Shown: positions 4,633 to 44,773 of the stretch, one piece after another | Position numbering within the stretch: position 1 is the stretch's first letter | How the letters are laid out: the number at the start of each line of letters is the position of its first letter | Source of the DNA: Bdellovibrionales bacterium RIFCSPHIGHO2_01_FULL_40_29 | Lineage (GTDB): Bacteria > Bdellovibrionota > Bdellovibrionia > Bdellovibrionales > Bdellovibrionaceae | Reading direction: 5' to 3' | Assembly: GCA_001771815.1 (NCBI GenBank) | Contig: MEPU01000012.1 | Coordinates: 62,001-126,000 of the forward strand | Length of the DNA: 64,000 nt | Notes under the pieces: generated by a model | Seen by the model: the letters and a program-made list of their open reading frames with translations, nothing else | Told to the model about the DNA's origin: nothing | The model's database searches: none | Translations under genes and position numbers: made by a program

Positions 4633-5562
4633 ATGAATAAAAAAGTTTCTGATATTTTTGATGCAACTCAATGGACCGAAGTAAATGGTTTCGATTTCAC
4701 AGATATTACCTATCACCGCGCCAATGACCAAGGCACTGTCCGCATTGCCTTCAATCGCCCAGAAGTTCGCAATGCTTTTCGTCCAAAAACTGTCGATGAG
4801 TTATCTACCGCACTTGAGCACGCACGCATTTCTGCAGATGTCGGAGTCGTTATATTAACAGGAAATGGTCCCTCATCAAAAGATGGCGGTTGGTCATTTT
4901 GTTCAGGTGGCGATCAACGCATTCGCGGAAAAGATGGCTACAAGTACGAAGGACATGACAGCAATGGAACAGGACTTAGCGAACAAAATAAAGTCGATTT
5001 AGCCAAGCTTGGCCGTTTGCATATTCTGGAAGTTCAACGTCAAATTCGCTTTATGCCTAAGATTGTGATGGCCGTTGTTCCTGGTTGGGCCGTTGGCGGT
5101 GGTCACTCATTGCATGTTGTTTGTGACCTGACACTGGCTTCCAAGGAACATGCTCTTTTTAAACAAACGGATCCTGATGTGGCGAGTTTTGACTCGGGAT
5201 ATGGGTCTGCTTATTTGGCTCGACAGGTTGGACAAAAAAAAGCGAGAGAGATATTTTTCTTGGGTCGAAATTATAATGCAGAAACAGCATTTCAAATGGG
5301 AATGGTCAATGAAGTTGTCCCTCATCAAGATCTAGAAAAAGTGGCTCTTGAGTGGGCCAAAGAAATGAATCAAAAATCACCCACAGCCATGCGCATGCTG
5401 AAGTATGGCTTCAATATGATCGACGATGGTTTAGTTGGCCAACAGCTCTTTGCTGGGGAAGCCACCCGCTTGGCCTACGGGACAGAAGAAGCCACCGAGG
5501 GGCGAAATTCATTTGTTGAAAAAAGACCAAAGAATTTTAAAAAATTCCCATGGCATTATTAA
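4633..5562 (+). CDS. menB: 1,4-dihydroxy-2-naphthoyl-CoA synthase
   Basis: A 309-residue crotonase-fold enzyme that closes the second ring of the naphthoquinone in menaquinone synthesis. MenB-specific signals are WSFCSGGDQRIRG (oxyanion region with the GGDQ motif), VVPGWAVGGGHSLHVVCDLTLAS, and FDSGYGSAYLARQVGQKKAREIFFLGR. The ATG at 4633 is chosen because MNKKVSDIFDATQWTEV resembles the family N-terminus; an in-frame start 36 nt upstream is possible. No other men genes are in the window. The organism therefore probably makes menaquinone. Confidence 0.94.
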   Translation: MNKKVSDIFDATQWTEVNGFDFTDITYHRANDQGTVRIAFNRPEVRNAFRPKTVDELSTALEHARISADVGVVILTGNGPSSKDGGWSFCSGGDQRIRGKDGYKYEGHDSNGTGLSEQNKVDLAKLGRLHILEVQRQIRFMPKIVMAVVPGWAVGGGHSLHVVCDLTLASKEHALFKQTDPDVASFDSGYGSAYLARQVGQKKAREIFFLGRNYNAETAFQMGMVNEVVPHQDLEKVALEWAKEMNQKSPTAMRMLKYGFNMIDDGLVGQQLFAGEATRLAYGTEEATEGRNSFVEKRPKNFKKFPWHY

Positions 5563-5715
5563 GAGCACTCGTAAGAAACGGACCTCTTCCAAGAATGATC
5601 CATAGTGTACAAACCCTCGACAAAGTAGTGAACTTTTAAAGTCACACTCTTTCTTATTCTGAGACTTAGACTTGCATTTTTGCGAGAGTATTTTTGTGCA
5701 TGATAAACTGAAAGC

Positions 5716-9800: not shown

Positions 9801-10319
9801 ATGATAAAAAAATGGAACGATCAATTAGAAAAAATATTTGAAACCAACACTCAGGATTTGACCCTTATTGAAAGTCAGCAAAGCTTCGAACTCAATGCTG
9901 ACAACACTCAACTTGAAAATTTAAGTTATATTCACAGTTCTGTTACAAGTACCAATAGAACCAATGTTTTTTCGCAGCTTTGTCCATTTTTTGAAATTGG
10001 CTTTTTACTCGAGAAACAGAATAAAAACTATGCCCCCACCCAGGCTTTTGCTTTTGGTCAGCCCATCCGTCTGGATCAAAAAGCGATCACTCTTAATTTA
10101 CCTCAAACTTCGCTTTTTGCAGTTGTGAAAACACCAGCAACAAGTATCTTAAAGAAAATGAACTTTGAATTTCTCAATTCTCGACAAAAAATGAATGCTT
10201 TCATCATCGCTATCAGTCCCCAATTTTCCGTATTAGTTGCCACAGAAATGGCTGAACCGTGGATTAAAGTACGACTTGAAATTTTGCAAAAAACTTTGAT
10301 GAAAATTTCTTTTGAATGA
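9801..10319 (+). CDS. conserved hypothetical protein
   Basis: A 172-residue soluble-looking protein beginning MIKKWNDQLEKIFETNTQDL. It has no signal peptide or clear domain motif. The end (WIKVRLEILQKTLMKISFE) overlaps the ppsR start by 4 nt (ATGA), so it is translationally coupled to the regulator of phosphoenolpyruvate synthase or pyruvate phosphate dikinase. That coupling is the only clue to function. Confidence 0.7.
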   Translation: MIKKWNDQLEKIFETNTQDLTLIESQQSFELNADNTQLENLSYIHSSVTSTNRTNVFSQLCPFFEIGFLLEKQNKNYAPTQAFAFGQPIRLDQKAITLNLPQTSLFAVVKTPATSILKKMNFEFLNSRQKMNAFIIAISPQFSVLVATEMAEPWIKVRLEILQKTLMKISFE

Positions 10320-24819: not shown

Positions 24820-25092
24820 TCACCAGTATACAGTGATTCCCCATAAAGGTGGATACTGAGATTTCATATGATCATACAATGAACCCGACTTTAGTCGCAC
24901 CTCGTCGATGTTCATATTCCCCGCAGTGACGCGGCAACTGGGATCAAATTCGTTCCGCTCATCAAAAAACATAAATGGAGCCAGGGATTTTCCACATCCA
25001 TCGCACTTGGTAACAAAGTCATTCTCTTGTTCATTAACAGTCGAACAAACATGACAGCGGCGTATATGAATTTTGCTTTTCGTATTGGTCAT
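24820..25092 (-). CDS. small zinc-ribbon protein
   Basis: A ~90-residue protein. Two CxxC pairs (C13/C16: RRCHVCS; C30/C33: KCDGCG) in a short spacing form a probable zinc ribbon, followed by a C-terminal region rich in aromatic residues (MKSQYPPLWGITVYW). The ATG at 25092 has a GAGG ribosome-binding site; a GTG at 25098 is an alternative. It sits directly upstream of the threonine dehydratase gene, one base apart, so the two are co-transcribed. Function unknown. Confidence 0.75.
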   Translation of the reverse strand: MTNTKSKIHIRRCHVCSTVNEQENDFVTKCDGCGKSLAPFMFFDERNEFDPSCRVTAGNMNIDEVRLKSGSLYDHMKSQYPPLWGITVYW

Positions 25093-25098
25093 GTTCAC

Positions 25099-25435: not shown

Positions 25436-26236
25436 GTGAGCTTACAAAGTGAATCTAAAATAAACCAACTTATCACTGCTTGGCCCGATGGGGCGATAAT
25501 GACCACGGCTTGGCTTGAAAAAAAAGGCCTAACTAGGCAGCTTCTCTATAAGTACAAACAAAGTGGTTGGATTGAAGGGATTGGCCCAGGCGCCTATAAA
25601 AAAATGGATGATAGCATTAGCTGGCTTGGCGGTGTTGAAGCATTACAGAAGCAAGTGAACCTCAAAATTCATGTTGGGGGCCGAACAGCGTTGGATCTTC
25701 ATGGGAAGGCGCACTACTTAAAGTTTGGAAAAGCCACGCTAACGCTTATAGGAAAATCTGGCTATAAGCTTCCCACCTGGTTTAAAAACTATTCATGGAA
25801 TACTGAAATTAACTTCGCATCAAGTAATTTATTCGAAGAACTCGACGAAAACTTTGGAAAAAAAATAGCTGGATATACAGTTCATTCGAGTGGTCGGATA
25901 TCGATTACCATCTCGTCAGCAGAAAGAGCCATACTTGAATTTCTGGATCAAGTCCCCCAAGAAAATGAATACGATGAGGCTTTAAAAATCATGGAGGGGC
26001 TGACCTCACTTCGGACAGGTCTTCTTCAAGAACTTCTTGAAAAATGCAAATCAGTAAAAGTAAAAAGGCTCTTCTTACACTTAGCAAACCGAATTAACCA
26101 CTCTTGGTTTCAAAAATTAAATCAAAGTCGCATCGAACTGGGTGCTGGAAAACGTCTTATATACAAGAACGGTTACTACGATTCGAAATACAGAATAACC
26201 GTACCAGAGGAAGCGCGTGAGCCTAGATCAGTATAA
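25436..26236 (+). CDS. abiEi: AbiEi-family antitoxin/transcriptional regulator
   Basis: A 266-residue protein starting with GTG. The N-terminal ~60 residues form a winged-helix (SKINQLITAWPDGAIMTTAWLEKKGLTRQLLYKYKQSGWIEGIGPGAY), as in AbiEi antitoxins, followed by the larger AbiEi C-terminal domain (GGVEALQKQ...IHVGGRTALDLHG, SSAERAILEFLDQVP). In type IV AbiE systems this protein represses the operon and neutralises the AbiEii nucleotidyltransferase without binding it. It overlaps abiEii by 20 nt. It lies in an accessory island between housekeeping operons. Confidence 0.88.
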   Translation: MSLQSESKINQLITAWPDGAIMTTAWLEKKGLTRQLLYKYKQSGWIEGIGPGAYKKMDDSISWLGGVEALQKQVNLKIHVGGRTALDLHGKAHYLKFGKATLTLIGKSGYKLPTWFKNYSWNTEINFASSNLFEELDENFGKKIAGYTVHSSGRISITISSAERAILEFLDQVPQENEYDEALKIMEGLTSLRTGLLQELLEKCKSVKVKRLFLHLANRINHSWFQKLNQSRIELGAGKRLIYKNGYYDSKYRITVPEEAREPRSV

Positions 26237-27140
26237 AAAACAAGTTGAACTTCTATTGGCAGTCTTGCCATTTATTGGCCAAGAAAAATGCTTTGCACTA
26301 AAAGGTGGAACTGCAATCAATCTATTTGTAAGAAATATGCCCCGCCTTAGTGTTGATATCGATCTTACCTACATGGGCGAAGAGTCCAGACAAGAAGCAC
26401 TTGCTTTAACTGCTGCGGCCCTGTTTCGCATTAAAACTCATATTGAATCTAAAATTCGTGGCTCAAAGGTGATGTCCTCAAAACGAAATACTCAAGAAGA
26501 AGACGCCAAAATTTATATTGAACGAAATGGAGTTACTATTAAGATTGAAGCAAATCCAGTTATTCGGGGTTCTTTGTATCGGCCTAGTATCCGGATTTTG
26601 CAACCAGCCGCTATTGACGAATTCGAAGTTGAAACTGAAATTTCAGTAGTTGATCTTGGCGACCTTTACGGCGGAAAGCTTGCCGCAGCACTTGATCGAC
26701 AGCATCCGCGCGATCTTTTTGATGTATTTTTGCTTCTACAAAATGAAGGCTTAACGGAAAAAATAAAAAGAGGATTGATCTGTTATCTGCTGAGTCACAA
26801 AAGACCGATTCACGAAATCATTCGCCCCACCCTTAAAGATCAAAAAGCCTTATTTGAAAAAGAATTTATTGGAATGACGATGATTCCTTTTACCTATAAA
26901 GAATTTGAAAAAACTCGGGCAAGCATGATTAAGTTAATTCATAAAAATCTTACAGACGAAGATAGGAAATTTCTCATTTCATTTTCTGAAGGGGCACCTG
27001 ATTGGAATTTGTTCCCAGAAGAAAAAATTGAATCACTTCCGGCAATACAGTGGAAACTTGAAAATGTGAAAAAAATGAATCCTGAAAAGCGCAAATTGAT
27101 GACGGCAGAACTTAATCATGCAATTTATAGGGGCGATTAG
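26217..27140 (+). CDS. abiEii: AbiEii-family nucleotidyltransferase toxin
   Basis: A 307-residue protein starting with GTG. The nucleotidyltransferase signature is present: LKGGTAINLFVRN (G30-G31-T32) followed by LSVDIDLTY (D47, D49), then VTIKIEANPVIRG, and the fourth motif region KLAAALDRQHPRDLFDVFLL. AbiEii toxins transfer nucleotides to tRNA acceptor stems or other substrates and cause growth arrest, giving abortive phage defence. All key residues look intact, so the toxin is probably active. Downstream lies a broken FGE-like gene end. Confidence 0.9.
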   Translation: MSLDQYKKQVELLLAVLPFIGQEKCFALKGGTAINLFVRNMPRLSVDIDLTYMGEESRQEALALTAAALFRIKTHIESKIRGSKVMSSKRNTQEEDAKIYIERNGVTIKIEANPVIRGSLYRPSIRILQPAAIDEFEVETEISVVDLGDLYGGKLAAALDRQHPRDLFDVFLLLQNEGLTEKIKRGLICYLLSHKRPIHEIIRPTLKDQKALFEKEFIGMTMIPFTYKEFEKTRASMIKLIHKNLTDEDRKFLISFSEGAPDWNLFPEEKIESLPAIQWKLENVKKMNPEKRKLMTAELNHAIYRGD

Positions 27141-27149
27141 TAATCATAA

Positions 27150-27265
27150 TACCCAGAGTTACGGGCTAGACCTCACGAGGCGGAACCCCACACCTTAGTT
27201 ACGAGTATCAGGCGAGATGTTGCTGCGAAGACCAGAACGCAAGCCCTGCGCGGCTCAATAAAATA
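27150..27265 (-). pseudogene. remnant 3' end of an FGE-sulfatase-like gene
   Basis: Read on the minus strand, this stretch encodes GLRSGLRSNISPDTRN, a stop, then GVGFRLVRSSP and a terminal stop. It aligns codon for codon without gaps over at least 63 nt to the last residues of the FGE-like domain of the gene at 36880-41064 (SRSGFRGNLGPSFRDGDVGFRLVRTSP). Identity is highest around the stop codon and continues a few bases past it. In-frame stops and the lack of any upstream FGE sequence show it is a broken gene. It sits between abiEii and tpiA. Confidence 0.75.
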
Positions 27266-27399
27266 AGTCGCACGACTTAGAACTTTTCTAGCCGTTATTT
27301 GAAATCGAGGTGTGCTAAATTTAAGTTTAAATAGTTTATTTAAGGAATCTGATTCTAGGTGAAATTGGAATTCATACAAAAAATGAATGAACTAATCTA

Positions 27400-28134
27400 C
27401 TAGCTTTGACAGATTTTATAGAACGTATTGGGATCTAGCGAAGCCCCGCCAATCAGAAAACCATGCACGTGCGGAACTTGTAAAAGCTCTTTTGCATTTT
27501 CAGGCTTCACGCTGCCACCATATAATAATTGGAAATTCTGAAAGCCCATGGACGTCAACTTATCAAAGATTTTTTGGTGAATTTCGGCCACTTGATCGCG
27601 GGTGGCCACTTTACCAGTACCGATAGCCCAGACTGGTTCATAGGCGACGATCAACCGTTGGGTGGTGTCAATGCCTGCTAATCCTTTTTCGATTTGAGAG
27701 AAACAGACAGTCTCTGTCAATTCAGCGTCTCGCTGATCAAGTGTTTCTCCGATACAAAATACGGGTATCACCTTCAATGATTGAAGTAATTTAACTTTCT
27801 GATTCAACAAGGCATCAACTTCGCTAAAAAGTTGTCGTCGTTCACTGTGTCCCACTAAAAAAAACTGTGCTCCTAATTGGACGGCGACTTCGGCGGAATT
27901 TTCTCCGGTAAAGGCTCCTGATTTTTCTGAAAAAATATTTTGTGGCCCAAACTGAATTTTTGTTCCAGCACACGCCTTGGAAACGGCATCCATTGAAAAT
28001 GCGGATGGAAAAATCAAGACATCACTTTGATTGAAAACACCATTTGCAGCCAGCTTCATAAAATCTTGAATAAACTTAGTCGCCTCGAGAGGAGATTTAT
28101 TGAGTTTCCAGTTGGCTGCAAATATTTTTTTCAC
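27400..28134 (-). CDS. tpiA: triose-phosphate isomerase
   Basis: A 244-residue TIM-barrel enzyme interconverting DHAP and glyceraldehyde-3-phosphate. It starts with GTG (MKKIFAANWKLNKS), with catalytic His in VGHSERR, catalytic Glu in VAYEPVWAIGTG, and the phosphate loop LLYGGSVKPEN. The start overlaps the pgk stop by 4 nt (GTGA). Third gene of the gapA-pgk-tpiA operon. Confidence 0.97.
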   Translation of the reverse strand: MKKIFAANWKLNKSPLEATKFIQDFMKLAANGVFNQSDVLIFPSAFSMDAVSKACAGTKIQFGPQNIFSEKSGAFTGENSAEVAVQLGAQFFLVGHSERRQLFSEVDALLNQKVKLLQSLKVIPVFCIGETLDQRDAELTETVCFSQIEKGLAGIDTTQRLIVAYEPVWAIGTGKVATRDQVAEIHQKIFDKLTSMGFQNFQLLYGGSVKPENAKELLQVPHVHGFLIGGASLDPNTFYKICQS

Positions 28135-35708: not shown

Positions 35709-36835
35709 ACTATTTATTTAATGCACTTCCCAACTTTACACGAATTGAAATCTCGCCCAGCAGTCGAGATTCTGAAGTTGCTGATCGCATTCGCTCTCTG
35801 TACCCCAAGGATATTATTGTTGAACTGGATTCGGATATCGACGCCACCGCAAACAAAGGCATCATGTCAGCTGACGAGTTTAATGCTTCAAAAAAATCTT
35901 TGTTGCTAACAACCTTCAAAGGTCAATTTTTTAAACGCTGTCCAGGAGCCACTCAAAAAAAAGCCCTGACCTGTTGTAATTACCATGTTCTTAACCTTGG
36001 CAGTCAGTGCAATATGAATTGCAGCTATTGTTATTTGCAAAGTTATTTAAATTCAAAACAAACAAAAATATTTACAAATATCGATGACGCTTTGTTGGAA
36101 TTAAAATCAATGGCGGATCAATTTGCGGAACACCCTTTTCGAGTTGGTACAGGCGAAGTGATTGATTCTTTGTCGTTAGATCAATTGACATTGTATTCGC
36201 GAAAACTGATTCCATTTTTCAATCAGTATCCAAAATGGAGTTTAGAGTTTAAAACCAAATCTCACTTTGTAGATCAATTCTTGGATCTGGAAACAGTCGG
36301 CAATACCATTGCCAGCTGGTCCGTGAATCCGGACTATATTATCGAACGCGAAGAACATGGAACGGCATCACTCGAGCAACGCCTGACCGCAGCCCGAAAA
36401 TGCAAAGATAAAGGCTTTCAATTGGCTTTTCATATTGATCCCATGATTTGGCATCCTGAATGGAAAGAAAATTATTCCTTTTTAGCAGAACAAATTCAAA
36501 AATATTTCAGTGCTGACGACGTGAGTATTATTTCTATGGGTGCGTTACGATTTCAACCGGAGCAAAGGCATATGATGCGCGAACGGTTTGGCATGAAGTC
36601 CTTGGTGACTTCTGCGGAAATGTTTCCCAGCGAAGGAAATAAATTACGCTATGATGCCAGTGTTCGAGCGGAAATGTTTCAATTTATGCTGAAATGTTTC
36701 AAAGAGAATAGTTCGAAGTGGAATATTTTCTTATGTATGGAAACACCGGAAACATGGATCGGATCTTTTGAAAAAATTCCGATCCAAATTCCCGAGTTGC
36801 GTTCGGTTTTTAAACCTCTACCAACTCTTACTTAA
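35705..36835 (+). CDS. spore-photoproduct-lyase-like radical SAM protein
   Basis: A 376-residue radical SAM enzyme. The 4Fe-4S motif is QCNMNCSYCYLQ (C102, C106, C109), with further cysteines C90-C91. The region following (HPFRVGTGEVIDSLSLDQLTLYSRKLIPFF) and EFKTKSH are characteristic of the SPL family. These enzymes repair spore photoproduct, but many homologues occur in non-sporulating bacteria. The stop lies inside the left copy of a 25-bp direct repeat, and a small hairpin plus a T-run there (36825-36850) can terminate transcription. Here no sporulation genes accompany it. Confidence 0.85.
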   Translation: MNYLFNALPNFTRIEISPSSRDSEVADRIRSLYPKDIIVELDSDIDATANKGIMSADEFNASKKSLLLTTFKGQFFKRCPGATQKKALTCCNYHVLNLGSQCNMNCSYCYLQSYLNSKQTKIFTNIDDALLELKSMADQFAEHPFRVGTGEVIDSLSLDQLTLYSRKLIPFFNQYPKWSLEFKTKSHFVDQFLDLETVGNTIASWSVNPDYIIEREEHGTASLEQRLTAARKCKDKGFQLAFHIDPMIWHPEWKENYSFLAEQIQKYFSADDVSIISMGALRFQPEQRHMMRERFGMKSLVTSAEMFPSEGNKLRYDASVRAEMFQFMLKCFKENSSKWNIFLCMETPETWIGSFEKIPIQIPELRSVFKPLPTLT

Positions 36836-36843
36836 GAGATTTC
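36819..36843. repeat. left copy of a 25-bp direct repeat bracketing the AAA/vWA module
   Basis: Identical to 44749-44773 over 25 nt (core CCAACTCTTACTTAAGAG); extending left to 36815 adds four positions with one mismatch. It overlaps the 3' end of the radical SAM gene and contains the inverted repeat CTCTT-ACTT-AAGAG. The second copy contains the 3' end of the 179-residue gene on the other side of the module. Confidence 0.9.
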
Positions 36844-36850: not shown

Positions 36851-36879
36851 TTAAAACCCGACGTTAGTAGGGCCAAGAG

Positions 36880-39800
36880 TTACGGGCTAGTCCTCACGAG
36901 GCGGAACCCAACATCGCCATCCCGAAAACTCGGACCGAGGTTGCCGCGAAAACCCGAACGCGAGAGCTCTGCAATATAGCTCCAACTACCGCCACGTACC
37001 ACGCGGTGAGAGCCCGAAATACCTAATGGATCATTTCCACCAGGTAATTTACTACTTCCATCCCAAGAGTCTTTATTCCATTCCCACACGTTGCCTTCCA
37101 AATCATAAAAAGGCTTTCCATCAATGACTCGTGGCTGAAGCGTTGCTACCGCGTGAGTCTGACTTCCTGCATTTCCAGAAAACCAAGCGTGATTAGGCAC
37201 ATCAACCTCGTCATCGCGATCGAAATGTTTTTTGTTAGCATTTCCGCGATCTCGCATCACGAACTCCCATTGCGCCACTGAAGGGAAATCATAAATGTCG
37301 CCTTTTTTATGACCAGAAATAAGTTTTTCTAAAAGATCCTGCGTCTTCATATCACCTGTGCTTGATAGCCGATTTAAGCCTTCAATATATCCTTTAACAT
37401 CTTCCCAGCTCACTTGTTCGACCGGATGATCCGCCTTCATTTGAACATCAATTCCTTCGATATGAACTGTCGTACTATCAGTTCCAGTTTTGAAATTCGA
37501 CGGATTGATTTTATTCAAATCTTTTTCGCCCATCGCAATCTTAAGTCTGGCCCACATCATTTGCGTCACTTGTGTCGCCATCATTTCAAATGGTTTTGTG
37601 ATTTCTGTACTGACCTGTGATCCAATTTCACCCATCATGAATTTTCCAGGCTTAATCTCATGGAAAGTCATTTTCTTGGCAAAATTCACTGGGTCAAGAG
37701 CTTCTTTAACAACTTTTTTCTGCTCTTCTTTTTTCTTTTCTTCCTGTTTTCCCGTGTCTTTAGTTTCAGCCTGGATTCTTAAGATAATCGTTTTCATTTT
37801 TTCTTTTAATTGATCACGTGTCATAATTTTATGATCTTCCAAATACTTAATAAGTTCGGCCTCTTTTTTTACGTAATCTTGCTTAAGCGCGGTTAATTGC
37901 AACGAACTTGCGCCTTGAACTTTGTCAGTTTCAAGTTTTAGTCTGAATCTTGATAAATTTTCGATTGCCATGCCTATTGATTTTTGAATATCCGCTGGAA
38001 CTTTACTACGCTGACTACTTTGGCTTAAACTCGGAAATAACTCAGGATACTTAGTAATTTCAGATTTGTATTCAGACATAAAATCCTGCGTGACAGAATT
38101 TACAACTTGAATATAATCACGAGCCTCATCAATCATCATTTCTAAGTGAAATCGTGTGCGTGAATCCAACACTCCTGATCCCAAAAGTCTTTCGATGACC
38201 TGAGAATCATTTTTAAATTCTAATGTGCCATCCGGATGAGAAATGCTTATAATTTTTTGCGGTGCCCAGTAGCCAAGTCCTTCAAAGAAAAGATTTAAAT
38301 CCTTCATCTGAACTGTGGTCTTAATATCTCTGAAAGCCACACCTTGCATCATTTGATGAACGATGAACCGCGCTTTGAATTGATCGATCAATTTAATAAC
38401 GGTTCTATCAGAAGCACTTCCTGCAGCAGAAACGTAGTAATCTGGAAATTCACGAGGGTCCATTTTGTTAGCTTTTCTAGTTTCTTCTTCTTTTTTTATT
38501 CTCAAAGCCAAGAACTTTTCTTGAATTTTTGCTAACGCCTCTTTAACGGCTGGATTTTCAAATTCAACTTGATCAACTAAAGGCTTCAATTCGCCAACAC
38601 CTAATAGACCTTTCCAGTTTGGTGAAATACCTTTTTCAAGATTAGATAAAAACTGTGTTAACGCAGCTTCAGATGAAATTTTGTTCGATACGTAAACTTT
38701 GTTCGCCGCACGGTCCATGACCGCTTCACCCGTTGATCTGTCTTCGTGATACGAATCTAAAAACTCGCTCGGCATTTTATTAGAGGTTAAAATAGCAGTT
38801 CTTAATGCCGTTTTAATCACTTGGTTACCCGCAAAAACTTCGCGCTCATTTAAAATTGAAAGAAGGGCTGTAATCGTTTGTGGATTGGCTTTGTCAACTT
38901 CATCTAAAATGGCAAAAATGAACTTTTCTGAAGCTAAGCTCGTTGAAGTTTCAATTTCTTCGATACCATGATTAAGTTGCTTTTCAATTTTTGGAAAGCC
39001 GATTAAGACTCCTTCTGGAAGTAACTTATGGAACTGAAGCAAAAATCGCTCAAATACTTTTGGCTTTTCTTGTTTCATTCTTTGTAAGACCGCATGAATA
39101 AATTTTTGATCCGCTTTTTTACTAGTCAAAATCTTTTTAGTAAACGCATCAATTTGATCAGCATTTAATTTCTTAAGTTCTGATTTTAAAATCACCTCAG
39201 CTAAAGCGGTTTTTGCTCCGCCCGGAGGACCGAACACATAAAGATGATTTTCAGATAAAATCCCTGTCAAATGTGCTTCGATTGAGTGTTCAAGCTCGAC
39301 AAATCTTTGCTTGATGGCCTTCACTTCGTAACCCATCCAATCATAGTATCTGCCAACACGCTCTTTTTCTGGTGCTGTCATCATTTCACGTCTAAAAGCT
39401 CTGATCTCTTTAGCTGAACGTGGAGGCAGTAACTTTTGTGTGGCTTGGATTTGGCGCTGTGTGTTTTTATCAGATTGTTGATTTAAAGTTTCTGCAAATT
39501 GCTGAAGATCTTGTTTAATACTTTCAAGCTCTTTAGCCGTTCGTTCTTTTACTGTACCCTTAGCTAAAAGTTTATCAATCGCTGCGGAATCAATTTCAAA
39601 TTGCGGCTTAGCTAAGTTTACTTTATTAGCAGCTAAAATTTCATTAAGTCGATTGCCAATGCTATTATCATCCACCGAATAATCTTTAAATTCAGGTGAT
39701 TTGCTTTCAACAACCCACTTATTTTGGCCAGCCTGATTTTCTAATTTCAAAATAATTTGCGTGTTTCCTTCCAGATCTTGAAGGAAAAGCTTCCCATCAT

Positions 39801-41064
39801 ACGGCGAATATTCGACCTGAAGCTGTGATTTTATGCCCAAATCCGATTGGACTTGAATTCCACCAGCCAATATTTTGCCGTCTTTAATTTCAGTGACTTT
39901 AAAAGTTTTAAGTCTAACTTGAGATGGACCAATATAGAGTGCACTTTTAGCCAAAAGTGCTAAATCTTCTTTTTGTGGCGTTAGACGCACTTTTTCAAAT
40001 GGCACACCTTGCATGAGCTGATGAGCTACAAGTGAAGCTTTAAAAACTTGAATCATCCGTCTGACTGAGCGATTCGAGAACTGGTTGGCCGGAAAGTATT
40101 CACTTTCTGCTTCACCGTATCTGACTTGTTCCCGTGATTTATCAGCTTTGCTCGTGACGTAGCGATCAAAATTTCTTGCGATTTCTACGATGTCTGCCAT
40201 CATGTCGTCTGAAATTTTAACTTTATTCACTAAAATTTCTAATTCTCTAAGAGGAAGATTGATTTTTAATTTTTGTGGATTTTTAACCAGGTCATACATC
40301 GCAATCGTTTCGCGACTTGATAACTGCTGATTCGGAATATGGATTTTAATTGCCATGCGATCCAGCAATGCCTCACCTGATGGACGATCAGAATAGAAGC
40401 CTTGAATAAATTCACCTGTTGTTTTGTTTGATGTGAACACACCACTGGCCAAAATACTGTCGACGATTTTTGAACCTAAGAAAGCTTTTCTTTCATTTAA
40501 TACAGATAAAAGGGCATTTAAAACAGCCGGATTTGACTTTTCAGCTTCATCAGCGATCAAAAATAAAAATTTATCTCCGACAAGAGAACTTGAGGTTTCA
40601 ATTTCGTATTTTCCTTCTTTCATCATACTTGAAAATTTTTGAAATCCCGAAATTTTTCCTTCTGAAATAAGTTTATGAAATTGCAGCAGAAATATTTTTT
40701 TATCGCCTTCAGGAATTGAATTCAATACGGATTGAAACATGATCCTAGATAAAAATGTTTTAGCACCGCCGGGCTCTCCATTGATCCACACGAATTCTTT
40801 AGCTAAAATGGCTGTCGTTAATGCTTCAATAACTTGAGATCTGCCATAAACCACTTGATCAATCTGTTTTAATGCGTTGACAGATTCAGCCCAAGACATC
40901 TGAGATGATCTTGCTGTGGGTTGAAGTACAGCCTGCGGCGACGCTTTTTGAAACCCCTTATTTGCAAACAGATCTTCACATCTATTAGCGGCTTTTACTG
41001 AAATTGCATTTCCAGTTAAAGCTAACAATAGTATAGATGTCTTTAAACCAAATATTTTAGGCAT
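36880..41064 (-). CDS. exported tandem MoxR-type AAA+ protein with C-terminal FGE-like domain
   Basis: A ~1394-residue protein starting at ATG 41064 (GGAG 6 nt upstream; another ATG at 41076). A signal peptide (MPKIFGLKTSILLLALTGNAISVKA) is followed by NRCEDLF (27-33). Two MoxR/RavA-like AAA+ domains follow: first with Walker A GEPGGAKT (96-103), Walker B LIADEAEKS (DE 172-173) and TSNKTTGEF; second with GPPGGAKT (612-619), ILDEVDKA (DE 721-722) and TSNKMPSEF. A K/E-rich helical stretch leads to an FGE-sulfatase-like domain (~1126-1394: PVEQVSWEDVKGYIEGLN, DLEGNVWEWN, VVRGGSWSY, GFRLVR). No catalytic FGE cysteines are visible. Divergent from the vWA gene at 41184. Confidence 0.88.
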   Translation of the reverse strand: MPKIFGLKTSILLLALTGNAISVKAANRCEDLFANKGFQKASPQAVLQPTARSSQMSWAESVNALKQIDQVVYGRSQVIEALTTAILAKEFVWINGEPGGAKTFLSRIMFQSVLNSIPEGDKKIFLLQFHKLISEGKISGFQKFSSMMKEGKYEIETSSSLVGDKFLFLIADEAEKSNPAVLNALLSVLNERKAFLGSKIVDSILASGVFTSNKTTGEFIQGFYSDRPSGEALLDRMAIKIHIPNQQLSSRETIAMYDLVKNPQKLKINLPLRELEILVNKVKISDDMMADIVEIARNFDRYVTSKADKSREQVRYGEAESEYFPANQFSNRSVRRMIQVFKASLVAHQLMQGVPFEKVRLTPQKEDLALLAKSALYIGPSQVRLKTFKVTEIKDGKILAGGIQVQSDLGIKSQLQVEYSPYDGKLFLQDLEGNTQIILKLENQAGQNKWVVESKSPEFKDYSVDDNSIGNRLNEILAANKVNLAKPQFEIDSAAIDKLLAKGTVKERTAKELESIKQDLQQFAETLNQQSDKNTQRQIQATQKLLPPRSAKEIRAFRREMMTAPEKERVGRYYDWMGYEVKAIKQRFVELEHSIEAHLTGILSENHLYVFGPPGGAKTALAEVILKSELKKLNADQIDAFTKKILTSKKADQKFIHAVLQRMKQEKPKVFERFLLQFHKLLPEGVLIGFPKIEKQLNHGIEEIETSTSLASEKFIFAILDEVDKANPQTITALLSILNEREVFAGNQVIKTALRTAILTSNKMPSEFLDSYHEDRSTGEAVMDRAANKVYVSNKISSEAALTQFLSNLEKGISPNWKGLLGVGELKPLVDQVEFENPAVKEALAKIQEKFLALRIKKEEETRKANKMDPREFPDYYVSAAGSASDRTVIKLIDQFKARFIVHQMMQGVAFRDIKTTVQMKDLNLFFEGLGYWAPQKIISISHPDGTLEFKNDSQVIERLLGSGVLDSRTRFHLEMMIDEARDYIQVVNSVTQDFMSEYKSEITKYPELFPSLSQSSQRSKVPADIQKSIGMAIENLSRFRLKLETDKVQGASSLQLTALKQDYVKKEAELIKYLEDHKIMTRDQLKEKMKTIILRIQAETKDTGKQEEKKKEEQKKVVKEALDPVNFAKKMTFHEIKPGKFMMGEIGSQVSTEITKPFEMMATQVTQMMWARLKIAMGEKDLNKINPSNFKTGTDSTTVHIEGIDVQMKADHPVEQVSWEDVKGYIEGLNRLSSTGDMKTQDLLEKLISGHKKGDIYDFPSVAQWEFVMRDRGNANKKHFDRDDEVDVPNHAWFSGNAGSQTHAVATLQPRVIDGKPFYDLEGNVWEWNKDSWDGSSKLPGGNDPLGISGSHRVVRGGSWSYIAELSRSGFRGNLGPSFRDGDVGFRLVRTSP

Positions 41065-41145
41065 TGGAGTCTCCATAATTACATTAGGTTCAATAATTAT
41101 GCCGTCATCTGTTTATGTATCACTTTGATTCACTTAGATGATTTT

Positions 41146-41151
41146 TTGACA
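41146..41151 (+). promoter_or_regulatory. candidate -35 box for the vWA gene
   Basis: A perfect TTGACA sits 33 nt upstream of the ATG at 41184 in the 119-nt divergent gap of the two module genes. The -10 match at 17 bp (TTGCAT) is poor, so this is only a weak promoter candidate. Confidence 0.25.
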
Positions 41152-41183
41152 GCCACCAGGCCCCTGTCTTGCATTAAATACTT

Positions 41184-44100
41184 ATGATGAAAAATTTTAT
41201 TTCGCACTTATCTTTAATATTAGCTCTTCATACTGTAAGTGCCAACGCTCATGCGACTAATCGCTGCGAAGATCTTTTTTCACCGACTTCTACAGCTAAA
41301 ACTCAAAACAAATCTTTAACTTTGACTAATGAATCTTGGGAACAATTTTATAAAAAATCTGATTTAAATCCAAGACCCGCGCTGTGGCTAAAGATTAGAC
41401 AGTCGTTAGAAAAGCACGTTACTCATCTTCAAAACCCTTTAGAAACGGCTGGAACTGATGCCAATAGAATTGGGGCCGTCTATAAATCAATGGTCCTAGA
41501 GCTTCCACTCTTAAAGACACTGATCGAAGCTGATCGGCTGCCAAAATTAAGTCATGCTGACTTTATTACTTTAAAAAGGCTAGCCGCTAATCTGATTATT
41601 TCAGTAAGTGGTAAACCAAACTCAGCCCTTCAAGTTTTTGCAAGCCTTGAGGCTTTAAAATATATTTCTTCAATCGAATCTCGCGTTGAATTTCCAAGAA
41701 CTAAAGAGGAAATCGAAAAAGAGACTAAAAAACAAGAGATCGACAAAAAGAAGCAGGAAAAGAAAGATAAAGATCAGCCCGAAGATGACGAACCACCAAA
41801 ATGGAATAAAGCAGAAGATAAATACAAGCCTGAAAATAAGGACATCAGTTCTGAAGATGGCGGAAAGAAAAAAAACGCCGACATTTTGATGACCGATGCT
41901 GATGTGCCAAAGCGTCTTTTAAGACAAAAAATTTATGATCTTTTTGATCTTAAAGATTGGTCATCAAATCCTGTTCAACGAAACGCTCTGGTGAAAGAAA
42001 ATTCTTTTACGAAAAAAATGATTATTGATTCTCTTGGCGAATCCGAAGTCGATGTTCCAGTTCCCTATGGATACACACTTGTTCCCGGAAAATACACTGG
42101 CTATGAGATTAAAGAAATTGGCCCTGGAGAATTTAAACTATACCCCAGCAGTAAAGAAAAAGTTACATTAGGGCTAAGTCGAATTATTGATGAACAGCAC
42201 AACTCAAGTTTGCGCCGACCTGTTGGGGTTGACGTCCTAGCTCACTGGCCAATGCATTTAATCACTTTTACTGAAAGCTTAAAAGGCCTTTCCGCTGTAG
42301 AAGCGGCTTTGAGAATGGAAAAATACATCTCTTTAGATGGTGGATTTCTATATTACTCAAAAGGCGATAAGATTGATGAGGCAGAGCTTTCCAAAATTGA
42401 TCAAAAAATGAATTCACTTCTAACTCAAATGCCAAAACCAATGGCGATGGCTAATGCCGGCGCATTTAACTGTGATGGGGCCGCGTGGATCGGTGCTATT
42501 TTACTTCGAGATGTTCTAGGTCACCAAGTACGCATAGCTGGAGGCAGAACTTCGGCTGGCATAAAAACTATAGAAAATAATAAATTCCATGTTGTGAGAT
42601 CCTCTGATCCAGCCCACGCATGGCTTGAGGTCTATGATGGTAAAAACTGGAAGCCATTTGATATGACGCCAAAAAACAATACACCTGATTCTGACTCAGT
42701 CCCTACTGATTTGCAAAGAGACGAGCCGCAAGAATCACCGCCCAAAGATAGCAAGCCTGACCAACAAAAAGGTGAACAAAAATCTAAGTCTGATAGCAAA
42801 GATAAAGGCACTGATGAAAAAGAAGCTGGCGAAAGTAAAGGCGATAAATCTGGAAAAGATGAAGCCATCGATAGCGAAACCAGAAAAATTGACGAACTCA
42901 TTAAAGCCAAATCAACGCAACGACAAAAAGATGAATCGCACTTAGCTTTGATTGATAAACTTTTAAATCGTAATGAATTGATGTTTTTGGAACATTTAAT
43001 ATACGATGGTCATCAAACTAAATTCGTTGATGAATCAAATCAAGTTTTAACAAACTTAAAAGCTCAGCCGAACTGGAAAAATCCAGTCGAAAGGTCTGAA
43101 CAAAAAATAGCTGGAATTTTAAATGAATCAAAATTTTCTAAATTTCATGGGCTAAGTCATTTGATTAACGAAATCAGAGTTGACTTCGGACAAAATAAAT
43201 CTCGCGATGCAAGACAAAAAATGATGATCGCGGAACGTCTTCTACTAACACTTTCTGAATACCGTAATTTAACACGTGCAGAAATTGAAGCTTTAACGAC
43301 AATCCAAAGAATATCCTCAATGTTGGATCAAATGAAGCATAAAAACTCAAAAGAATTTGATGTGGTTGATCAGCTTTTAAAAGACTTACCAGGTAATGTT
43401 TCAAAAGAGTGGTTGAGTCGTCAGTACGGAAAAGGTTTTGACCAATTAGGCACTTCATCAAATATCAAACTTGCAAACGACTTAGTTTCTGGAAAATTAA
43501 AGCCACTTCTTCAAATGGGGGCCGTGAATGATTTTGTTGATATGACATTAAATTCATCTCAAGAACCACAGTGGAGGGACGAGCCTACTTTAAATCGAAG
43601 TATTCTTCCAAAACCACGTCAAGATTTAATCGTTACTAGAAATCCACTGGATTTCGCAAAAATGCTTTGGAACTTACGCCCTGGTGAAAATATGTTTGCG
43701 CCGACACTTCAAGGTCGTCAGTTTGCTATGGGAAGTCTTGAAACACGCCGAGTTCCAAATCCTAAAAATCCAATCGAAAGAAAAGTCTCAGTTGTGTACT
43801 ATGACATTTCAGGCTCTATGAAAGGTCATCCTTTAGAAACAGTAGATGCACTTCTTATGACTTTTGCAGACAAGGCTTTGTCAGAGGTCGATGCCATTGG
43901 AAGACCAACGCATGAAATTTATTTAATACCTTTTAATGATAAGATTTACGAAGGCATTCATATCTCGTCACGTGAGGATGCAAAGAATTTCTTAGCGAAA
44001 AAAATGAATATGCGAACTCAAGCAGTGGGCGGAACTGATATTCAAAAAGTCATTGAAAATTTTTACAGTTTAATTTCATCAAGCTATCAGAACAAGTCAG

Positions 44101-44735
44101 GTCAAGGTCGTGAAAAGTTATTTCAAAAGGCGAATATGATCTTATTCACTGACGGTGGCTCAGCGATTGATATGCAAAGAATTGAAGTGGCCAGAAAAAA
44201 AATTCCAAGTGCTGTTCAGATTAATATGAATTTTGTATCGATTGGTGATTCAGTTAATGAAACTCTTAAAGCTTTGTCATCGAATAGCAAACTTTCAACG
44301 ACAAAGCCGACATTCAGAGAAATGAATTCTGGGATGATTGATTCAGTCGTTGGAGTTTCATCAAACTATGACCCGGCTGCTTTCGCGACTGAGCAGAAAC
44401 TATCAGGTCAGGTTTTAGTAGAAATTAGCGAGCAACTTCAAAAAATTAATATCGACCCTAGACAGCCTGGAAATAAAGACCAGATCGACAAAGCTGTGTC
44501 ACAGATCCAAATTACTAAAGCTGATGTCAGCAAACTTTCTGGCCTTCGTGAAATTTTAAATCTGCAAAAGCTTGAAACCGTCATTGATGACATGAAAATT
44601 AACCAAGTTACTAAGCAAAGATTGGTCCTGGCAATCATCGAATCGTATCAGCAACTGTCCGGCAGAAGTTGGAAAGATATGACGTATGGTGAGAAAGAAA
44701 CCTTAGAAAAATTAAAAAAGTGGTCAAGCCTTTAA
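41184..44735 (+). CDS. exported transglutaminase-like and von Willebrand A domain protein
   Basis: An 1183-residue protein. Signal peptide (~1-25), then NRCEDLF (26-32) shared with the divergent AAA protein. After a helical region and a K/E/D-rich low-complexity linker (~175-230), a transglutaminase-like domain carries the triad Cys430 (FNCDGAAW), His478 (AHAWLEVY) and Asp493 (PFDMTPKN). A second charged linker (~497-585) precedes a helical segment and a vWA domain with an intact MIDAS (DISGSM at 874-879, GGTDIQ, LFTDGGS). MoxR ATPases commonly pair with vWA proteins and transglutaminases, so this is the probable partner of the gene at 36880. Both being exported is unusual. Confidence 0.88.
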   Translation: MMKNFISHLSLILALHTVSANAHATNRCEDLFSPTSTAKTQNKSLTLTNESWEQFYKKSDLNPRPALWLKIRQSLEKHVTHLQNPLETAGTDANRIGAVYKSMVLELPLLKTLIEADRLPKLSHADFITLKRLAANLIISVSGKPNSALQVFASLEALKYISSIESRVEFPRTKEEIEKETKKQEIDKKKQEKKDKDQPEDDEPPKWNKAEDKYKPENKDISSEDGGKKKNADILMTDADVPKRLLRQKIYDLFDLKDWSSNPVQRNALVKENSFTKKMIIDSLGESEVDVPVPYGYTLVPGKYTGYEIKEIGPGEFKLYPSSKEKVTLGLSRIIDEQHNSSLRRPVGVDVLAHWPMHLITFTESLKGLSAVEAALRMEKYISLDGGFLYYSKGDKIDEAELSKIDQKMNSLLTQMPKPMAMANAGAFNCDGAAWIGAILLRDVLGHQVRIAGGRTSAGIKTIENNKFHVVRSSDPAHAWLEVYDGKNWKPFDMTPKNNTPDSDSVPTDLQRDEPQESPPKDSKPDQQKGEQKSKSDSKDKGTDEKEAGESKGDKSGKDEAIDSETRKIDELIKAKSTQRQKDESHLALIDKLLNRNELMFLEHLIYDGHQTKFVDESNQVLTNLKAQPNWKNPVERSEQKIAGILNESKFSKFHGLSHLINEIRVDFGQNKSRDARQKMMIAERLLLTLSEYRNLTRAEIEALTTIQRISSMLDQMKHKNSKEFDVVDQLLKDLPGNVSKEWLSRQYGKGFDQLGTSSNIKLANDLVSGKLKPLLQMGAVNDFVDMTLNSSQEPQWRDEPTLNRSILPKPRQDLIVTRNPLDFAKMLWNLRPGENMFAPTLQGRQFAMGSLETRRVPNPKNPIERKVSVVYYDISGSMKGHPLETVDALLMTFADKALSEVDAIGRPTHEIYLIPFNDKIYEGIHISSREDAKNFLAKKMNMRTQAVGGTDIQKVIENFYSLISSSYQNKSGQGREKLFQKANMILFTDGGSAIDMQRIEVARKKIPSAVQINMNFVSIGDSVNETLKALSSNSKLSTTKPTFREMNSGMIDSVVGVSSNYDPAAFATEQKLSGQVLVEISEQLQKINIDPRQPGNKDQIDKAVSQIQITKADVSKLSGLREILNLQKLETVIDDMKINQVTKQRLVLAIIESYQQLSGRSWKDMTYGEKETLEKLKKWSSL

Positions 44736-44748
44736 GAGCGATTTCCTT

Positions 44749-44773
44749 TACCAACTCTTACTTAAGAGATTTC
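44749..44773. repeat. right copy of the 25-bp direct repeat bracketing the AAA/vWA module
   Basis: Exact match to 36819-36843, 7,930 bp apart. The 3' end of the 179-residue leftward gene (stop 44758-44760) lies within it. A partial additional copy, TTAAGAG(CG)ATTTCC at 44732-44745, lies just inside the module end. Confidence 0.9.

Follow-up and report, generated by a model that had tools for sequence, protein, structure and literature searches.

How does the broken end of a lost gene come to be nearly identical, through its stop codon and beyond, to the end of an intact gene elsewhere in the same bacterial genome? The broken end lies in the window (the whole stretch of 64,000 nucleotides analysed here), where it lies within the roughly 250 bases between an AbiE pair and tpiA (27141-27399); the intact gene, at 36880, encodes MoxR-like AAA domains fused to an FGE domain. 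It had been proposed that a second member of this AAA/FGE family once stood here and that its end was kept alike by recombination between the copies. Our analysis points, with high confidence, to another origin: positions 27152-27358 are very probably the scar of an internal deletion in a two-gene unit, similar to one found on contig C30 of a related genome (G029:C30), and end in the variable repeat (VR) of a diversity-generating retroelement (DGR).

The gene remnant beside the AbiE pair

On one side of the scar, the AbiEii toxin gene (26217..27140, plus strand; PF08843, E 4.5e-34; PADLOC AbiEii, E 3.9e-116) has its stop codon 11 nt away. Next to it, on that same side, comes the AbiEi antitoxin gene (25436..26236, plus strand) (PF11459, E 2.2e-48; PADLOC AbiEi, E 5.1e-87). 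The stop codon of tpiA (27400..28134, minus strand), a gene named from a reading of its neighbours and with a homologue in 14 of 14 genus genomes, lies 41 nt from the scar on the other side, the stretch between them being unassigned.

The match to the intact gene joins 27152-27192 to 36873-36913 without gaps, at 93% over 41 nt, and is the top direct repeat within the 20-45 kb part of the window. A wider alignment of the scar with the 3′ end of the 36880 gene reaches 75% over 92 nt (E = 2.8e-11 to 5.8e-11). Chance was rejected as the source of this match. The minus-strand translation of the scar reads ...AQGLRSGLRSNISPDTRN*GVGFRLVRSSP*, with one in-frame TAA at 27195-27197 ahead of the terminal TAA at 27159-27161. 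Identity between the two loci extends about 10 nt beyond the stop codon, and the post-stop string CCCGTAACTCT is common to both, being closer between them than to the corresponding string of G029:C30. The original prediction is borne out in all of these respects, namely the gapless near-identity, its continuation past the stop codon and the decay by an in-frame stop; the genome-wide search that it proposed (2.93 Mb, 13 contigs) returned the scar and the 3′ end of the 36880 gene as the sole two places at E ≤ 0.001.

At the protein level, the FGE part of the scar, too short for a clear assignment to FGE-sulfatase (PF03781), gave a 28-aa tblastn match (E 0.033). Searches at blastn level found no match between the scar and plasmids, or between the 3′ end of the 36880 gene and phages, and a promoter and terminator scan around the scar returned sites no more numerous than in shuffled sequences.

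Two abutting pieces of a probable lost unit

The scar contains a second gene fragment. Ahead of the FGE tail, another frame of the interval reads ...LESDSLNKLFKLKFSTPRFQITARKVLSRATYFIEP, and positions 27252..27358 (minus strand) encode the counterpart of residues 113-148 in the 608-aa protein of G029:C30 (78% over 36 aa by tblastn, E 6.8e-12). The interval first described, 27150-27265, stops short of this piece, which was missed there.

In G029, a member of the same family and of a different genus, the gene for the 608-aa protein is followed directly by one for a 1015-aa ankyrin-FGE protein. The first piece of the scar (27357-27252) aligns to positions 5544-5649 of the G029:C30 stretch (L028) with 79/106 nt identical, and the second (27251-27152, minus strand), which comprises the 3′ end of the lost ankyrin-FGE-type gene with its stop codon (27159-27161) and a short 3′ flank, aligns to positions 9955-10054 with 71/100 nt identical. 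The two pieces abut without a gap, and their counterparts lie in the same order, on one strand of one G029 contig, separated by 4305 nt in G029 coordinates. Since the pieces meet exactly where about 4.3 kb of the unit would be missing, the scar is best read as an internal deletion of an operon like that of G029:C30. Codon differences between the first piece and G029 comprise 14 synonymous and 8 nonsynonymous changes, with 8, 3 and 18 substitutions at the three codon positions, a pattern that marks selection on an encoded protein over most of the period after the lineages separated.

Relatives of the 608-aa protein were found in 11 of the 140 genomes of the order, the scar and G029 among them. 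The pairing of this gene with an FGE gene has one complete case, G029:C30; in G128:C118 a 1015-aa-type gene again comes after a 608-aa-type gene, and the contig stops before an FGE domain is reached. A search of viral contigs for the 608-aa gene gave a pattern match in five stretches, none of them a relative. The 608-aa protein itself (L028 5207-7033) matches the FhuF type marginally (27.2 bits, cut-off 25.2); the match surrounds an EAHTQN...RDF segment that may be akin to IucA/IucC siderophore synthetases.

The tpiA-ilvA interval could be read in 12 of the 13 genus relatives, the contig of G048 ending at tpiA. In four of them (G045, G051, G052, G055) tpiA abuts ilvA, and in three (G050, G054, G056) the sole gene between is a small one corresponding to 24820-25098. 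The remaining five hold other content: a gene of about 390-420 aa (G047, G049, G057), an 823-aa gene (G046) or a 156-aa frame (G053). Neither tblastn nor reading-frame listings revealed AbiE, an FGE gene or the 608-aa gene there in any of the 12, and an intact MoxR-FGE module, which the original prediction had suggested looking for at this site, was present in none (0/12). What stands in the interval varies between relatives, and the AbiE pair, like the lost unit, looks like an arrival.

We propose that an ancestor carried, between tpiA and ilvA, the gene for the 608-aa protein and then an ankyrin-FGE gene with a DGR variable repeat at its 3′ end. The loss of about 4.3 kb, in G029 coordinates, would have fused the first gene, at about residue 148, to the variable repeat of the second; the start of the first gene would also have been lost. 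The AbiE pair now stands 11 nt past the surviving end; the order of its arrival and the deletion is inferred.

A homing site shared among DGR target genes

The variable repeat of the scar has an end of the homing-site (IMH) type, GGGTTCCGCCTCGTGAGG, at 27171..27188 (minus strand), located by pattern search. The pattern GGNTTCCGCCTCGTGAGG occurs at 13 places in 9 of the 140 genomes of the order, and its reversed form at none. Two of the 13 places are the scar and the 36880 gene of the window, and the other 13 members of the genus have no match. Eleven places are FGE-type tails of this group, including cut, frameshifted or broken copies (those of G103, G104 and G105:C319); the two exceptions are a frame in G083 that is not FGE-like and one in G084 that is FGE-like and lacks the usual variable pattern. 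The frame at these places usually ends in RGGxW...variable...GFRLVR and a stop codon, GGNTTCCGCCTCGTGAGG being the end of variable C-type-lectin/FGE domains in the related genomes.

The motif spreads well beyond the order. The 20-mer GGNTTCCGCCTCGTGAGGAC had 28 matches in 27 stretches of the named genome collection, hosted by Bdellovibrionales, Bacteriovoracales, Oligoflexia bins, Kiritimatiellae, Verrucomicrobia, Armatimonadota, Riflebacteria and others. The RGG...GFRLVRT frame is in place at 23 of the 28; of the rest, two are cut by contig ends, one is frameshifted and two do not fit. Reverse transcriptase (RT) homologues occur in 6 of the 27 stretches, two of which are the G029 and G104 records themselves. 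In viral contigs the 20-mer was found in four stretches, two of them fitting. Past the stop codon, many VRs have a pyrimidine-rich run of the CCCTTGRYCCYTTTACCCTTTG type that the template repeats (TRs) lack (3′ flanks of L022, L025, L015 and L011); this run may belong to the target site.

FGE domains commonly end in a GFRLVR-like string, and the similarity between scar and module could in principle reflect the conservation of such C-termini and nothing else. We consider this the least credible of the readings, hardly deserving any weight. The two other over-cut-off FGE genes of the genome have no DNA match to the scar, so ordinary conservation of the FGE motif does not account for it and the concern that the similarity is confined to motif level falls away. 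The match is moreover detected at DNA level (E 2.8e-11) with identity running past the stop codon, and the reversed-pattern control is empty across 140 genomes.

Several related genomes carry complete-looking DGRs with adenine-specific differences between template repeat (TR) and VR. The IGNLTSQ motif marks DGR-type RTs; in G029:C36, an FGE gene with the IMH end adjoins an RT gene bearing this motif and a second copy of the repeat, the TR. Among 127 columns, 20 are unlike between TR and VR: 19 are template adenines, and the 20th is the IMH/IMH* position. G104:C142 combines HRDC, Avd (NF033474, 107.9 bits, cut-off 80), RT and TR, with 18 of the 25 TR/VR mismatches at adenine. G029 and G104 carry the cognate RT and TR. 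An RT and a TR are also present in G105:C29. An RVT_1 search of eight genomes gave an over-cut-off match in five; the set consisted of seven of the nine pattern-bearing genomes (all except G083 and the genome studied here, which was searched separately) and G102, which has no pattern match. The RT of G084 lies within a longer frame of 521 aa.

The VR of G104:C142 (L029 4060-4180) has lost one base, which frameshifts the target gene just ahead of its variable part; the RT, Avd and TR look intact despite this. Two further stretches, L132 and L133 (G128:C77 and G001:C14), hold about five FGE-domain genes each in tandem arrays.

In this light, the near-identity of the scar and the 36880 gene is explained because both are DGR target ends with a shared homing site, rather than remains of a duplicated module. 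The last 20 or so coding nucleotides would be the IMH, necessarily constant, and the codons just upstream would be those rewritten at template adenines by mutagenic retrohoming. Recombination with a degraded second MoxR-MoxR-FGE copy, which we regard as very improbable, would also yield 93% identity over 41 nt across the stop codon, and the greater closeness of the post-stop string between the two loci than to G029:C30 would suit it. Yet the upstream half of the scar does not match the MoxR part; its match is a different gene, which in G029 stands ahead of another FGE gene. Unrelated FGE genes from several phyla also end in this tail, and for these, recombination with the present genome is not plausible. 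In G031, moreover, the tail and post-stop string of the module orthologue are almost the same. Recombination between copies is therefore not needed for a tail that, conserved across the stop, corresponds to the homing site. As for the proposal that a second AAA/FGE family member stood at the site, a broken FGE-type gene was indeed there; its membership of that family is not supported, the nearest intact relative found being the ankyrin-FGE gene of G029:C30, which follows the unrelated 608-aa gene.

Apparently orphan variable repeats and the MoxR module

The VR of the intact gene (RGGSW...GFRLVR) spans 36892..36996 on the minus strand, with the same IMH at 36892-36909, and aligns without gaps over 105 nt with three TRs and other VRs; the scar retains the last 80 nt or so. 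With the G029 TR as query, the genome returned its two VRs alone at E ≤ 1. Since it yielded no TR of its own, the three TRs from relatives took that role in the adenine test. On this basis, the scar is unlike the module VR at 15 of 25 TR-adenine columns and at 11 of 54 others (p = 7e-4); the contrast is weaker when the IMH columns are excluded and counting starts at column 33 (11/18 vs 8/31, p = 0.016). Against G029:C30, the scar differs at 12 of 20 adenine columns and 8 of 47 others (p = 8e-4), and the module VR at 17 of 30 and 11 of 69 (p = 7e-5). Between the module VR and its G031 orthologue the figures are 19/30 and 19/69. Retrohoming may once have acted on both loci in this lineage.

These counts also bear on whether the scar might descend from the template repeat of a lost DGR instead of from a target gene. 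TRs are non-coding and can hold stop codons, the genome has no detectable RT, and adenine is kept at 8 of 18 TR-adenine columns in the scar as compared with 3 of 18 in the module VR. A TR, however, would keep adenine at nearly all 18 columns. The scar is furthermore fused to the gene upstream of the target gene in G029, not to an RT, its IMH has the VR form GAGG (TRs have GAGT or GAAT) and its post-stop string is of VR type. Descent from a TR is thus very unlikely, and we retain the reading of the scar as the end of a target gene.

A search of the genome for RTs (PF00078) gave one match, of 14.4 bits against a cut-off of 29.6, in a 249-aa frame whose sequence does not resemble that of an RT. 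Within 110 nt after either VR, no stem of at least 6 bp with a loop of 3-8 was found. Applied to 10 VRs, this simple test detected just two stems, a strong case (G105:C308) and an A/T run. In BPP-1, the DGR target site consists of the IMH and a downstream hairpin (Guo 2011, PMC3240598). The constant 3′ end of the VRs, a feature required for homing in BPP-1, is shared by the present loci, which differ in having no comparable hairpin; a hairpin requirement of the BPP-1 type is not supported by these sequences. With no RT, TR or 3′ hairpin detected, the genome does not appear to carry a complete DGR and its two VRs look like orphans. The RT and TR would have been lost rather than never resident.

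Remnants of this sort have precedents. Treponema denticola isolates without RT and TR keep remnant DGR target genes (PMC4891356); there, as here, a VR-bearing target is left without core DGR components, whereas here most of the target has been deleted and what remains is joined to part of the gene upstream. In cyanobacteria, remote variable proteins are encoded by CLec-domain genes with a 3′-terminal VR, away from any RT, and remnant TR-VR homology is reported for one paralogue (PMC7517822). Our loci share the FGE/CLec gene, the 3′-terminal VR and the lack of a nearby RT; unlike the cyanobacteria, which have a TR in the genome, no TR was found here.

As at least one orphan VR persists intact in the genome, IMH included, where neither RT nor TR was detected, and near-identical IMHs occur across genera and phyla, it is conceivable, though a long shot, that orphan targets are rewritten in trans by DGR machinery arriving transiently on a phage or other incoming element. 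The shared IMH would then be a portable docking site and the targets would travel independently of the retroelement. What appeared to be a pseudogene oddity becomes a probable trace of DGR gain and loss, and GGNTTCCGCCTCGTGAGGAC provides a DNA tag by which DGR target genes can be located even at a distance from any RT or TR; among named relatives of this bacterium, it marks Bdellovibrionales, Bacteriovoracales and Oligoflexia bins.

The intact orphan belongs to a module. The 36880..41076 gene (minus strand, 1398 aa) encodes a protein in which two MoxR-like AAA domains are joined to an FGE domain at the C-terminus (PF20030 bpMoxR, E 3.8e-27; PF07728, E 4.2e-14; PF03781, E 2.9e-28, passing the gathering score with 99.7 bits). 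Its divergent partner (41184..44735, plus strand, 1183 aa) encodes a vWA domain (PF00092, E 1.5e-8). This head-to-head order is kept in G031 and G003. Among the 140 genomes, three have the module at ≥60% identity: G031 has it complete, G003 lacks the FGE part, and the match in G062 stops at residue 738. In G052 and G055 its flanking genes are adjacent and the module is absent. The pair had no PADLOC match.

DGR-diversified MoxR/vWA ternary conflict systems have been described (Kaur 2020, PMC7159879; Dore 2024, PMC10907252), and VR leftovers without RT or TR are likewise published, so the present case is of a known sort. As in those two reports, a MoxR-like AAA protein, a vWA protein and a variable FGE/CLec domain share one neighbourhood (36880-44735). 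In contrast to the systems described there, the FGE domain is fused to the double-MoxR protein and not to the vWA protein, both proteins have signal-peptide-like N-termini, and neither VMAP nor RT was found beside them among the Pfam-tested neighbours, which yielded no third component of a ternary system.

A 29-bp direct repeat (97%; 36815-36843 and 44745-44773) brackets the module and overlaps the genes on either side at their 3′ ends, the kind of trace that could result from an insertion with target duplication. In 11 stretches from relatives its best match was 21/29, with no single-copy empty site. Both module proteins (starts at 41076 and 41184) begin with the signal-peptide-like stretch followed by the same string, NRCEDLF, and an exported double-MoxR ATPase, if this is one, would be unusual.
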